Source: Actinomycetota bacterium (GTDB lineage: Bacteria; Actinomycetota; Actinomycetes; Mycobacteriales; Mycobacteriaceae). Taken from it: DNA of 64,000 bases. The translations under genes and the position numbers were made by a program. The notes under the pieces are model-generated. The model was given only the letters and a program-made list of their open reading frames with translations. It ran no database searches and was not told where the DNA came from. The first letter of the stretch is position 1, and every line of letters begins with the position of its first letter. The stretch is taken from assembly GCA_018268465.1 (NCBI GenBank), contig JAFDWN010000015.1, positions 64,887 through 128,886 of the forward strand, written 5' to 3'. Positions 60,034 to 63,980 of this stretch are shown piece by piece.

Positions 60034-60747
60034 TCAATGCACCGCGACCCGCTGATCGGCGTAGGGATTGCCCAGCCAGGTGCGGCGCATCCGCTGCAGT
60101 GTCCCGTCGCGCTCGAGCGCGGATTGCGCCGCACCGATTCGCCGGAGCCGGTCGCGGTCGGTGCGGCCGACAGCGACGGCGATCTCTTCCACGGTGATGC
60201 CGCGCTGGACGACGTCCACGCCCGCCAGCGGTTTGACGAGTTCGGTGAGCACGGGCGCCAGTTTCATCACCACGTCGCAGCCGCCGGTCGTCAGGTCGGC
60301 CAGCGCGGTGTGGATGCTGCCGTAGTCGTAGACGCGGACCCGGCCCGCCCTGCCGTCGGCGACGAGGCGTTCGGCGACCGCCACACTGGTGTTTCCCCGC
60401 TGCACTCCGATGGTCAGACCATCGAGGTGGTCGACCGAAGCCACGTGTGGCAGCCGCCGGGTGTCCACGGCGATGGCCTGTCCGGAAATGAGGTAGGGCG
60501 GTGCGAACGCCGCCTGCTGCTGCCGCTGCGGTGTGACCGTGGTGCCCGCGGTCACACAGTGGTAGGTGCCCGCGGCCAGACCCGCGAAGATGCCGTCGAA
60601 ATCGGCTCCGCCGTATGGCACGAACTCGACGGTGGCGCCGAGTTCGCGCCCGATCGCCGCCATCAGTTCGATGTCCAGACCGCTGCCCCCGGGCATGCCG
60701 TTGAACGGCGGATCGGGAAGGGCGATACCCACCTTCAACGTCGGCAT
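60034..60747 (-). CDS. Solute-binding protein family 3-like, no signal peptide
   Basis: A 237-residue protein of the type II periplasmic-binding fold (LDIELMAAIGRELGATVEFVPYGGADFDGIFAGLAAG, VTAGTTVTPQRQQQAAFAPPYL, LTIGVQRGNTSVAVAERL). Normal family members are exported lipoproteins with an ABC permease; this one begins at MPTLKVGIALPDPPF with no hydrophobic leader, no in-frame upstream start and no transporter genes near. It may be a cytosolic sensor or a degraded remnant. Ligand unknown. Confidence 0.75.
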   Translation of the reverse strand: MPTLKVGIALPDPPFNGMPGGSGLDIELMAAIGRELGATVEFVPYGGADFDGIFAGLAAGTYHCVTAGTTVTPQRQQQAAFAPPYLISGQAIAVDTRRLPHVASVDHLDGLTIGVQRGNTSVAVAERLVADGRAGRVRVYDYGSIHTALADLTTGGCDVVMKLAPVLTELVKPLAGVDVVQRGITVEEIAVAVGRTDRDRLRRIGAAQSALERDGTLQRMRRTWLGNPYADQRVAVH

Positions 60748-61057
60748 CCCCCGACCGTAGGGCGCTGGACGCCCGTACGCCAGCGCCGCCCGCCTTGCTC
60801 ATGCCAAAACTGTTGAGAGCCAACTAGATAACGAGGACCTCCGCGACCGGCGCGCCGATGTCGGCCGACGGGCACGGCAGGCGCGCGGGCCGGCCCGTGT
60901 ACCGCACCGGTGGCGTACTCTCAGCTGTGCCGGCCACGCCTGCATCCGGGGACGCGATGTCGCGACCAAACTACGACATCTCATATTCGCCAATCGGCAG
61001 TCGGCCTCGGTCCCGCCGACAATAATGGCCCGCGTACTCATCGAGGGAGGATTGCTC
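60748..61057. other. Divergent intergenic region, no gene
   Basis: About 310 bases between the solute-binding gene and the SDR gene. It holds a GGCGCTGG/CCAGCGCC hairpin (60761-60787), a -10-like CATATT near 60988, and the GAGGGAGG ribosome site of the SDR gene. No tRNA or conserved element was recognised. Confidence 0.5.
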
Positions 61058-61897
61058 GTGACCACAACCGTCGATCAGGTCGGTGAATCGGAGTCAGACG
61101 CGTTCCGTGGCGGCAAATTGCGCGGCCGTGTCGCCTTCGTCACGGGCGGCACCCGAGGTATCGGCGCATCGATCAGCAAAAGCCTCGCCGGCCAGGGCGC
61201 CACGGTGGCGGCCGGTTACGGCAGGAACACCGTGCAGGCAGAGAAGTTCCTCGCCGAACTCACCGCCGCCAGCGACGATGCCGAAGTCAGCATCCATCAG
61301 GGCGACGTGGGCTCCGCCGCGGACTGCCGCAGGACCATCCAAGAGGTGATCGACCAGCACGGCCGCCTGGACATCCTGATCAACAACGCGGGCATCACCG
61401 CCGACAAGACGGTGGCCAAGATGACCGAGGACGACTGGGACAAGGTGATCTCGGTCAACCTGTCCGGGGCGTTCTACCTCGCTCAGGCCGCCCTCAATCA
61501 CATGCTCGAACGCGGCACCGGCCGGATCGTCATGGTGTCCTCGGTCATCGGCGAGATGGGGGCCATCGGCCAGGCGAACTACGCCGCATCGAAGTCCGGA
61601 CTGTTCGGTCTGACGAAAACCCTTGCGCGCGAGGCATGTTTCCAGCTCGCCCGGGCCGGCAAGCTGACCGAGGACGGCATCGGCGTCACCGTGAATACGA
61701 TCACACCCGGCTTCGTGGAGACCGAGATGATCGAGTCGATTCCCGATAAGGTGCTCGAACGCATCAAGGGCACGATCCCGATGAACCGGTTGGCCAAACC
61801 CGACGAGATCGCGCGGGTGGTGCATTTTCTGTCCGCCGACGCATCCGGCTACATCACCGGGCAGATCTGGGGCGTGAACGGAGGTCTGGATATGTGA
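61058..61897 (+). CDS. SDR-family ketoacyl reductase (acetoacetyl-CoA/PhaB-like)
   Basis: A 279-residue classical SDR: TGGTRGIG (residues 29-36), NNAG (109-112), Ser161/Ser162, Tyr175 and Lys179, so complete and active-looking. The N-terminal ~20 residues are an extra charged segment. It includes a longer AREACFQLARAGKLTEDGIGV insertion than FabG1. GTG 61058 has GAGGGAGG seven bases upstream; the ATG at 61025 would add 11 residues. It lies 80 bases before the ketosynthase III gene on the same strand and probably reduces its beta-keto product. Confidence 0.88.
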   Translation: MTTTVDQVGESESDAFRGGKLRGRVAFVTGGTRGIGASISKSLAGQGATVAAGYGRNTVQAEKFLAELTAASDDAEVSIHQGDVGSAADCRRTIQEVIDQHGRLDILINNAGITADKTVAKMTEDDWDKVISVNLSGAFYLAQAALNHMLERGTGRIVMVSSVIGEMGAIGQANYAASKSGLFGLTKTLAREACFQLARAGKLTEDGIGVTVNTITPGFVETEMIESIPDKVLERIKGTIPMNRLAKPDEIARVVHFLSADASGYITGQIWGVNGGLDM

Positions 61898-61977
61898 TGC
61901 CGCCCGTCGGCTCACAGGGGCCCCTCTCCCTCCAACACCCGAAACCGCAAAACCCCTCATCGATAAGGTGGTAGCAA

Positions 61978-63933
61978 GTGCCTGCGTTTGAATTGAACAA
62001 GCACGGCAAACTCGTCTTTCCCGCAAACTGCTTTCCCGACCTCGACTTCTCCACCTTCGACAGCCTCGACCAGCTCGAAGCCGTCATCCAGCGCGATTTC
62101 GATTCGAAGGCGCCGACAGGCAGCGAGATCCTGGAGCGGATCAAGACCGGCGGATACACCTCGAAGTTCGAGTTGATGCGCGATATGGCCCTCAATCTGT
62201 TCTGGGCCAACCGTTTCAAGATCACGATGTATGAGGTGCAGCCGACCAGGTGGGCCGACGTGCCGCGGCGTCGCGACGACGTCTTCGTCCCGATTCAGAC
62301 CCCGTGGCAGGACCGGGAGACGAAGGTCTCCTCGGTGTTCTCCGCGTATCCGAATCTGGCCGCGCAATGGGACGACGAGGCCGAAGACCGCATCTTCGAC
62401 ATCCTCTTCGACGTGTTCGCCCATCGGCGCAACCACGCGACCAAGCTGTCGGCCATCATCCCCACCGTCGCCGAGCTGTGCGCGGACCCTGCGAATCAGA
62501 CGCTGCGGCTGAACAAGTACGACCCGGACTTCCGGCGCTACAGCTACCGCGAGATCATCGACTGCGACGAGGATGTCGCCGAGCTGGAGGCCCTGCGCCG
62601 CTGGTCGATGGTGCTGCACAATCAGTACCCGTGGTCGCGCAGCGACGCGGCGCTCACGCCGGTGGGCGAACTGCGCGACGACGACTACATCGTCGTATTC
62701 CACCCGCGGGACCGCGAGGTCGCCAACTTCCTGTCCCGCGTCAACTCGGGCCAGGCCCCGGCGAAGCCCAAGGCCGCCGCGGCCAAGGTGGAACCGGTCG
62801 CGCCCGCGCGCGCGTATGCCCCGATCGACGTGCGCAACGACCTGAAGGTCGTGCCGCACATCAAGGCGATCGCCGCGGTGCACGGTGAACAGGTGTGCAG
62901 CAACGAGGACCTGATCCGGAACAGCGCCTACAACTGGTCGCCGATGTCGGCCGACGAGATCAGCTCGAAAACCGGTATCGAGCAACGTCGTTACACGTGG
63001 AGCAGCCTCGAGGAGATCTCGTTGCGGGCGGCCAGGGCGGCGCTGACGCACGCCGGCGTCGGGCCCGAGGAGGTGGGTGCGGTGATCGTGTGCACCTGCA
63101 CCAGCTCCCGGCTCATCCCGTCGATCGCGGCCTGGCTGTCGGGCCAGTTGGGTATCCAGCAGACGCACTGCTCGTTCGACCTCGTCGCCGCGTGCGCCGG
63201 GCTCAGTTACGGCCTCGCCGAGGCGTCACGGGTGCTGCAGACGGTCCAGCGCCCCGTGCTGCTGGTGTGCTCGGAGAAGTTCTCCGACAAGATCGGCAAT
63301 GTCCGCCCGTCGCGGATGATCTTCGGCGACGGCGCGTCGGCCATCGTCCTCGCACCGGCACCCGAGGGCACGCCGCCGGATATCGAGTTCATGCAGACCT
63401 ACGCCAGCGGCCCGATCAGCCAGGTGAACTCCATCCTGTGGCCCAACCCCGCGTTCGCCAACAACATCACGGTGTTCGGCCCCGAGGTGAAGTCGCTGGC
63501 CGGCCGCTACCTGCGCCAGATGCTCGAGGACATCCGGGCATTGCCCGACCCGGACGGGGCGGCGGAATCGCTGCTGGCCAGCATCGAACTGATCATCCCG
63601 CACCAGGCGAACAAGACGATGGTCATCGAGTTGGCCGCCGCCGCCGGAATCACGGCCGACCAGTTGTATTTCAACATCGAGCAGGTCGGCAACGCGTCCT
63701 CGGCGAGCATCCCGCTGGCCATCCACGACGCTGTGCGCGACGGCGTGATCAACAAGCCGACCCGCGTCTTCGCACCCGGCTTCGGCGCGGGCGCGGTCGC
63801 CGGATACTCCATCCTGCGTATCGATCCCGCCGTCGTCACCTCCGAGGATGCGGCATCGAGCGGTGAGAGCACGATGGTGCCGGATTCCGCGCCGACGCCG
63901 TCGGGCAACGACGTGGCGCTGGCGTTCGGCTGA
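61978..63933 (+). CDS. Ketoacyl synthase III with unknown N-terminal domain
   Basis: A 651-residue two-part protein. Residues ~1-255 form a domain with no motif I recognise (rich in Asp/Arg/Trp). A short Ala/Pro/Lys-rich linker (~258-280) follows. Residues ~282-617 are a ketosynthase III (FabH-like) domain with complete Cys406-His542-Asn572 triad (VAACAGLSYG, IPHQANKTM, EQVGNASSAS). The end (620-651) is a Ser/Asp/Pro tail. FabH is normally about 330 residues and free-standing, so this is a fusion. GTG start with AAGGTGG seven bases upstream. Pairs with the SDR gene. Confidence 0.9.
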   Translation: MPAFELNKHGKLVFPANCFPDLDFSTFDSLDQLEAVIQRDFDSKAPTGSEILERIKTGGYTSKFELMRDMALNLFWANRFKITMYEVQPTRWADVPRRRDDVFVPIQTPWQDRETKVSSVFSAYPNLAAQWDDEAEDRIFDILFDVFAHRRNHATKLSAIIPTVAELCADPANQTLRLNKYDPDFRRYSYREIIDCDEDVAELEALRRWSMVLHNQYPWSRSDAALTPVGELRDDDYIVVFHPRDREVANFLSRVNSGQAPAKPKAAAAKVEPVAPARAYAPIDVRNDLKVVPHIKAIAAVHGEQVCSNEDLIRNSAYNWSPMSADEISSKTGIEQRRYTWSSLEEISLRAARAALTHAGVGPEEVGAVIVCTCTSSRLIPSIAAWLSGQLGIQQTHCSFDLVAACAGLSYGLAEASRVLQTVQRPVLLVCSEKFSDKIGNVRPSRMIFGDGASAIVLAPAPEGTPPDIEFMQTYASGPISQVNSILWPNPAFANNITVFGPEVKSLAGRYLRQMLEDIRALPDPDGAAESLLASIELIIPHQANKTMVIELAAAAGITADQLYFNIEQVGNASSASIPLAIHDAVRDGVINKPTRVFAPGFGAGAVAGYSILRIDPAVVTSEDAASSGESTMVPDSAPTPSGNDVALAFG

Positions 63934-63940
63934 CACAACG

Positions 63941-63980
63941 GGCGTTCGGCCGCCTCCCGATGTGGAGGTGGTCGAACGCC
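63941..63980 (+). terminator. Terminator after the ketosynthase gene
   Basis: Seventeen-base arms (63941-63957 and 63964-63980), two of the pairs being G-U wobbles, with a six-base loop, eight bases after the stop. GGCGTTCGGC also occurs as a direct repeat at 63921-63930, at the end of the coding sequence. Likely ends the SDR-ketosynthase transcript. Confidence 0.6.

Follow-up and report, generated by a model that had tools for sequence, protein, structure and literature searches.

A 64,000-nucleotide stretch of contig JAFDWN010000015.1 from a genome of the Mycobacteriaceae (assembly GCA_018268465.1, positions 64,887 to 128,886 of the forward strand; hereafter the window) was analysed for two adjacent genes near its end, encoding a short-chain dehydrogenase/reductase (SDR) and a protein in which a 3-ketoacyl-acyl carrier protein (ACP) synthase III (KAS III) domain is fused to a long N-terminal domain. 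The two genes are one end of a seven-gene locus of polyhydroxyalkanoate (PHA) type, and the fusion protein is probably, at a rough probability of 0.72, the dedicated acetoacetyl-CoA (3-ketoacyl-CoA) synthase of this storage locus, driven by malonyl-CoA. Gene content, conservation and intact catalytic residues were observed directly, and from these the assignment was made.

In the proposed route, a single-chain acetyl-CoA carboxylase (ACC) would carboxylate acetyl-CoA to malonyl-CoA. An acetyl (or propionyl) group would be transferred from CoA to Cys406 of the fusion; assisted by His542 and Asn572, it would then condense decarboxylatively with malonyl-CoA, giving acetoacetyl-CoA (or 3-ketovaleryl-CoA). 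The SDR would then reduce the 3-ketoacyl-CoA to (R)-3-hydroxyacyl-CoA, which the PHA synthase (PhaC) would polymerise on granules coated by a phasin-like protein. With a fusion that produces 3-ketoacyl-CoA from malonyl-CoA, no step between acetyl-CoA and PHA would be missing from the locus, and the ATP spent by the ACC would pull a condensation that thiolase performs unfavourably. We infer the substrates, CoA rather than ACP as the carrier, and the flux to PHA. According to PMC5432608, NphT7 is an acetoacetyl-CoA synthase that uses malonyl-CoA and is said to lack the ACP-binding arginine; its reaction is described as irreversible, with about +7 kcal/mol for thiolase versus an estimated -0.9. 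A bacterial single-chain ACC is reported to be active on both acetyl-CoA and propionyl-CoA (PMC6491548).

The fusion protein and its condensing domain

The fusion gene (61978..63933, + strand) starts with GTG and encodes 651 amino acids. The N-terminal domain (residues 1-257, 61978..62748) is followed by an Ala/Pro-rich linker (residues 258-290, 62749..62847), the KAS III domain (residues 291-616, 62848..63825), a variable and probably disordered second linker (residues 617-642, 63826..63903) and a conserved C-terminal peptide, GNDVALAFG (residues 643-651, 63904..63930). Relatives were encoded on 153 contig stretches, of which the best 80 (L003-L082) were kept, each matching at least query residues 4-616; the fusion is therefore neither a frame nor an assembly artefact. 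Loci were picked for spread for two alignments (A1, 52 rows; A2, 45 rows), both of which include the window.

An earlier note on this DNA, made from the sequence alone, had described a complete KAS III site and an Ala/Pro linker, and both were borne out. Cys406 (63193-63195), His542 (63601-63603) and Asn572 (63691-63693), all on the + strand, are present and invariant in 45/45 rows of A2, and they align with the Cys, His and Asn of five solved FabH proteins, one of which (4x9k, titled C113A) has Ala at the Cys position. Mean pairwise identity falls to 36% over residues 258-282, against 61% for residues 1-257 and 71% for residues 291-616, and the predicted local confidence (pLDDT) is reduced in the linker, being lower around residues 261-270. 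Both family models of the domain were matched above their cut-offs (ACP_syn_III, 43.1 bits, cut-off 24; ACP_syn_III_C, 70.8 bits, cut-off 26.6). In plasmid records 20 matches were found, each covering 42-45% of the query and the KAS III part only.

The fold is closest to FabH (TMt 0.76-0.86 across the 50 matches listed, at 23-30% identity), which would also suit a FabH-type enzyme that acts on malonyl-ACP and primes fatty-acid or polyketide synthesis, for lipid and not for PHA. Such a role would agree with the single-chain ACC of Saccharopolyspora erythraea, which serves fatty-acid synthesis (PMC6491548), with the occurrence of the fusion without PhaC in Rokubacteria, and with a locus in another mycobacterium (L107, G036:C6, 6256-11772), in which a 48%-identical single-chain ACC adjoins a giant protein resembling, by eye, fatty-acid synthases (FAS) or polyketide synthases (PKS). 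We consider it unlikely. The fusion scores far below the cut-off of the FabH model TIGR00747 (148.7 of 292.1 bits), its own genome has further matches to this model, one scoring above the fusion and none reaching the cut-off, and its presence in only 3/198 genomes of the genus implies that it is not essential there. Its neighbours are PhaC and depolymerase-like genes, and inspection of the open reading frame (ORF) lists of the locus, which were not family-searched one by one, revealed neither an ACP nor a FAS gene. Thr also stands at the position aligned with the ACP-docking Arg of FabH in 44/45 rows (window motif PHQANKT), while Arg stands there in all five solved FabH proteins shown. This Arg corresponds to R249 of E. 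coli. Several pathways may each have a single-chain ACC as their own source of malonyl-CoA.

The PHA-type locus and its recurrence

Only 67 bases separate the end of the fusion gene from the window end, and the remaining locus starts about 33 bases further on in the same contig, the continuation of which was examined as L083 (G000:C6:118000-137999). In order, it encodes a PhaZ-like alpha/beta hydrolase (- strand, ending at L083:10920), for which the best NCBIfam model, poly(3-hydroxyalkanoate) depolymerase, gave 132.5 of 250.6 bits and so lies below the cut-off; PhaC (L083:11663-13483, -), matched by PhaC_N at E 1.2e-56 (191.6 bits, cut-off 23.7) and lying just below the cut-off of the class I model TIGR01838 (594.4 of 622.65 bits); an XRE-type regulator (L083:13532-13918, -); a phasin-like protein of 95 amino acids (L083:13969-14256, -), named by its place and by its counterpart in the distant actinobacterium G307, whose hit to Phasin_2 (E 8e-4) falls short of the cut-off; and the ACC of 1837 amino acids (L083:14463-19976, +), in which the biotin carboxylase (BC), biotin carboxyl carrier protein (BCCP), ACC_central and carboxyltransferase (CT) parts lie in one chain, with the biotin carrier motif ESMKMET from residue 624. 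The contig join just past the window end may be doubted, because two N bases (L083:10888-10889) lie within a perfect inverted repeat of 22 nt (L083:10866-10913), which may be another terminator or a hairpin that is difficult to assemble. It is supported by the mycobacterial loci L005 and L006, which keep the order fusion, PhaC, XRE, phasin-like protein, ACC. The contamination estimate of the genome is 5.86%, and the locus recurs in other Mycobacteriaceae.

The SDR gene (61058..61897, +) precedes the fusion and encodes a ketoreductase resembling acetoacetyl-CoA reductases (PhaB/FabG). The longest ORF (290 amino acids) starts at 61025, and the GTG at 61058 fits the N-termini of homologues better. 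The intact Ser-Tyr-Lys triad and the N-terminal tail given in the earlier note were both recovered (cofactor motif TGGTRGIG; S173-Y186-K190 in the numbering of the 290-residue ORF), the tail being variable in homologues. Among the NCBIfam models listed, the best was TIGR01829, acetoacetyl-CoA reductase (271.2 bits, below the 302.1 cut-off).

The 80 loci span Mycobacteriaceae with Millisia, Rhodococcus, Geodermatophilaceae, Pseudonocardia, Actinomycetospora, metagenome-assembled genomes (MAGs) of other groups, and Rokubacteria. Neighbours were counted with tblastn using the proteins of the window's own genome, as the ORF-caller output contains shadow ORFs and was not used for counts. The ACC was nearby in 55/80 loci, the SDR in 50 (37 at at least 63% identity, 13 at 43-55%), PhaC in 29 (9 at at least 69%, 20 at 38-47%), the regulator in 9 and the phasin-like protein in 5; the PhaZ-like hydrolase was found in 11 loci besides its own, nine of them at at least 48% identity. 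When only the 49 loci flanked on each side by 9 kb or more were considered, the ACC was found in 34, the SDR in 33, PhaC in 19, ACC and SDR together in 29 and all three in 15. In many Geodermatophilaceae the SDR lies beyond the ACC, and about 11 kb of G307 contain an SDR (39% identical), PhaC, phasin-like protein, XRE regulator, fusion and ACC.

The fusion is sporadic, being present in 2/61 genomes, in 3/198 of its own genus and in 2/346 of a spread phylum sample (own genome included in each), and in 10/121 genomes of an order sample centred on a Geodermatophilus. Among 50 fusion genomes chosen from the 80, PhaC_N was matched over most of the model in 46 and at all in 47, the match of L080 being short, weak and not counted; the genomes without a counted PhaC were L058, L078, L079 and L080. 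The spread phylum sample has PhaC_N in 36/346 genomes at E 1e-20 (two fusion carriers included) and in 59/346 at E 1e-3, a comparison between samples that, like the others here, ignores relatedness. Within the genus (198 genomes), PhaC was found in 35, including all three fusion genomes, and an ACC of at least 72% identity was found in these three and in one more (G455), with distant homologues (27-37%) in seven other genomes. A thiolase search (one query from L135, tblastn, 84 loci, E 1e-10) recovered only the query itself, at a setting at which distant thiolases could be missed.

The earlier note had proposed a compact acyl-modifying pathway. A condensing enzyme and a ketoreductase outside any FAS or PKS operon do stand, probably with a beta-hydroxyacyl product, in a locus of seven genes and not two; nothing was found in support of a methyl ketone. 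That the pair might be found apart in relatives is partly the case, with no SDR above the threshold in 30/80 loci, some of which are cut by contig ends.

R. ruber and R. aetherivorans carry the fusion, the ACC and the SDR. Rhodococcus PHA is often rich in 3-hydroxyvalerate (3HV) from single unrelated carbon sources (PMC7502451), and for R. ruber and RHA1 the phaC loci are noted to lack ketothiolase and reductase genes (PMC7502451, PMC2667194); the fusion, ACC and SDR of R. ruber and R. aetherivorans could fill this gap. The same observations, together with the acceptance of propionyl-CoA by a bacterial single-chain ACC (PMC6491548), would suit a variant that overlaps the proposed synthase role. 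In it the enzyme makes a special monomer, for example 3-hydroxyvalerate with propionyl-CoA as starter, or else a longer or branched unit; the N-terminal domain selects the acyl starter, while ordinary acetoacetyl-CoA continues to be supplied by a thiolase encoded elsewhere. It is rather improbable in this form: the sequences offer no evidence for a particular starter, and PhaC and the reductase suit C4 units as well as C5.

Several observations weigh against a PHA-dedicated, malonyl-CoA-driven synthase. Nearby PhaC proteins are only 38-47% identical in 20/29 loci, and none of ACC, SDR and PhaC was found in 11/49 loci flanked on each side by 9 kb or more (six Actinomycetospora, two Rokubacteria, L004 from Millisia, L051 and L055). 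The close mycobacterial relatives L005, L006 and L008 have no SDR at this locus. G455 (89% complete) has the ACC orthologue, yet neither the fusion search nor the PhaC search matched it, and both genes are absent from its 13-kb ACC contig. The window genome's own 95-residue phasin-like protein has no family match. The AGGSR motif of NphT7 is absent from the fusion sequence, and S. erythraea feeds fatty-acid synthesis from its single-chain ACC (PMC6491548). The Arg-to-Thr exchange may be no more than a hint of CoA over ACP, because the A. baumannii KAS III with Asn at the docking position still binds ACP (PMC8036411). Finally, the N-terminal domain or the fusion was found in 38 of the 95 genomes sampled from the rokubacterial phylum (only as fragments in a few, with two or three matches in some), and PhaC in 0/95 at E 1e-20. 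The 21 rokubacterial loci (L134-L151, L078-L080) sit in varied surroundings, with no ACC, no PhaC and one weak (31%) SDR match. Because PhaC, and the ACC at these loci, are missing, the fusion serves something other than PHA in Rokubacteria, and the enzyme is not bound to PHA everywhere.

The fusion gene is followed by an RNA hairpin (63941..63980, +; 17 bp, -36.3 kcal/mol, z -6.2, 0/200 shuffles as good), a probable terminator between convergent genes. The pair had earlier been credited with its own promoter region and a strong terminator; the hairpin agrees with the latter, although it has no T-tract and the terminator scan therefore found nothing, and no sigma-70-type promoter was found in the scan made. 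Divergent from the SDR lies a solute-binding-protein-like gene (60034-60747, -; SBP_bac_3, 237 amino acids by the listed ORF). A second, more distant PhaC in the same genome (G000:C8:47283-47789, in L110; 38% identical over 487 amino acids) adjoins an ORF that resembles, by eye, an acyl-CoA synthetase. In Mycolicibacterium hodleri (L003:20285-21868) a 101-residue and a 394-residue protein are encoded downstream of the ACC, the latter resembling class III PHA synthases or depolymerases (TIGR01836, 126.8 of 365.3 bits; DUF3141). Upstream of the locus in the mycobacterial MAG L005 (L005:1273-4023), ORFs resembling, by eye, a particulate monooxygenase (pmo/hmo) have counterparts in a second locus.

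The N-terminal domain and the C-terminal peptide

The first 255 or so residues, which had matched no recognisable domain in the earlier note, gave no match in family or structure searches either. Neither Pfam nor NCBIfam has a family that covers residues 1-257, the best Pfam E value among 52 homologues was 0.058, no PDB sequence matched below E 0.7 with a single sequence or a profile, and PHROGs gave no match. Foldseek against PDB and viral models, with VIA-align as a second look, found no structural match, a result that covers those two collections and does not prove a new fold. No known FabH-fusion family was matched in the searches made. The model of residues 1-287 predicts an alpha/beta fold with good confidence (pLDDT 90.4, pTM 0.83), and many polar residues are invariant in 52 rows (R39, D40, K44, R68, D69, R79, R91, D94, E136, E204 and R208).

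These invariant residues would be expected if the domain were itself catalytic (for example a decarboxylase or an acyl-transfer enzyme), with a soluble product and PHA genes as chance neighbours. This is very improbable, as a chance neighbourhood does not fit the recurrence in distant genomes and no enzyme family or fold was matched. The idea that the domain supplies, loads or hydrolyses the acyl group likewise found nothing in its support. The domain is kept with the KAS III domain in Rokubacteria, where ACC, PhaC and the C-terminal tail are missing, and for this reason we infer that it more probably contributes to the working of the synthase itself, through substrate choice, assembly or gating, than serves as a tag specific to PHA. 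No clear case of a stand-alone copy was seen among the matches in genome scans; a few shorter frames in the rokubacterial scan (G661, G684, G655, G652, G641) could represent interrupted frames, truncation at contig ends or genuine stand-alone copies.

Model confidence falls below 50 (pLDDT) from residue 624, and identity is 34% over residues 620-644. The tail beyond follows a consensus (commonest letters S, D/E, D, V/M, R/Q, x, A, F, G; "DDVxxAFG"-like) that occurs in its strict form in 74/80 non-rokubacterial fusions, or in 76/80 when two near variants are counted; these 80 are 77 of the 80 loci, the window's own protein, L085 and L109. Within the 74 strict matches F occurs in 74, A in 71 and G in 64. 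The tail is absent from L010, L024 and L041 (Rhodococcus), from L057 (Blastococcus) and from all 21 rokubacterial fusions examined. In a tree made by a quick method, with outgroups too distant for a usable root, the rokubacterial rows form one group and the tail label needs 5-6 changes, at least 4-5 of them forced by well-supported branches.

In the simplest reading, which is speculative, the tail would be a docking peptide for the ACC or the granule. The tail-less Rhodococcus enzymes (L010, L024, L041) still have ACC and SDR beside them, which speaks against a strict need for it. A more elaborate assembly is possible but doubtful: a natural, thiolase-free PHA pathway driven by malonyl-CoA, in which a new-fold N-terminal domain commits the KAS III to acetoacetyl-CoA (3-ketoacyl-CoA) synthesis and a C-terminal peptide of 8-9 residues, borne on a disordered tether, docks the enzyme to its own single-chain ACC or to the granule. 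Tethered docking would then pass malonyl-CoA on without leak to fatty-acid synthesis, and lineages without PHA would keep the enzyme and lack the tag.

Implications and comparison with known systems

The locus names testable genes for the supply of 3-hydroxyacyl-CoA in PHA-storing actinobacteria such as Rhodococcus, in which R. ruber and RHA1 are described with phaC loci that lack the thiolase and reductase genes of the classical operon (PMC2667194, PMC7502451). If the proposed route is true, its ATP drive would allow storage at low acetyl-CoA, propionyl-CoA as starter could explain 3HV-rich polymer, and the locus would be the natural version of a route that the literature found describes only as engineered. 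No description of a natural PHA locus with KAS III and ACC was found from titles and the starts of abstracts, a search mostly outside subscription literature and no proof of novelty. Apart from this route, the N-terminal domain is conserved, confidently modelled and without a relative found, and the tail is a possible docking tag.

The closest functional parallel is NphT7 from Streptomyces sp. CL190, a FabH homologue with a Cys-His-Asn triad and no ACP-docking Arg (PMC5432608); by analogy, its conversion of acetyl-CoA and malonyl-CoA to acetoacetyl-CoA is proposed for the fusion. Unlike the fusion, it lies in a mevalonate gene cluster, its triad at 115, 256 and 286 leaves no room for such an N-terminal domain, and it has the AGGSR motif, whose role is only suggested (PMC5432608); this comparison was made by description. 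FabH shares the fold and the triad, but the fusion has in addition an N-terminal domain of about 257 residues and a C-terminal peptide, has Thr at the docking position, falls below the family cut-off and stands in a different gene context. SACE_4237 of Saccharopolyspora resembles the linked ACC: both are bacterial and combine BC, BCCP, central and CT parts in a single polypeptide of about 200 kDa (PMC6491548). Compared by description, it is essential for fatty-acid synthesis, whereas the ACC found here occurs sporadically within its genus and is linked to a PHA locus.

Operons of the Cupriavidus phaCAB type contain the thiolase gene phaA. These operons and the phaC-phaZ loci of Rhodococcus resemble the window locus in their PhaC, reductase, phasin-like and depolymerase-like genes and regulator. 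Unlike phaCAB, the window locus has no phaA thiolase that could be found at the locus, and has the KAS III fusion and the ACC instead. Engineered polyhydroxybutyrate (PHB) production in sugarcane through an acetoacetyl-CoA synthase, as cited in PMC5432608, relies on the chemistry proposed for this locus, where it would be carried by a natural, inherited gene set.

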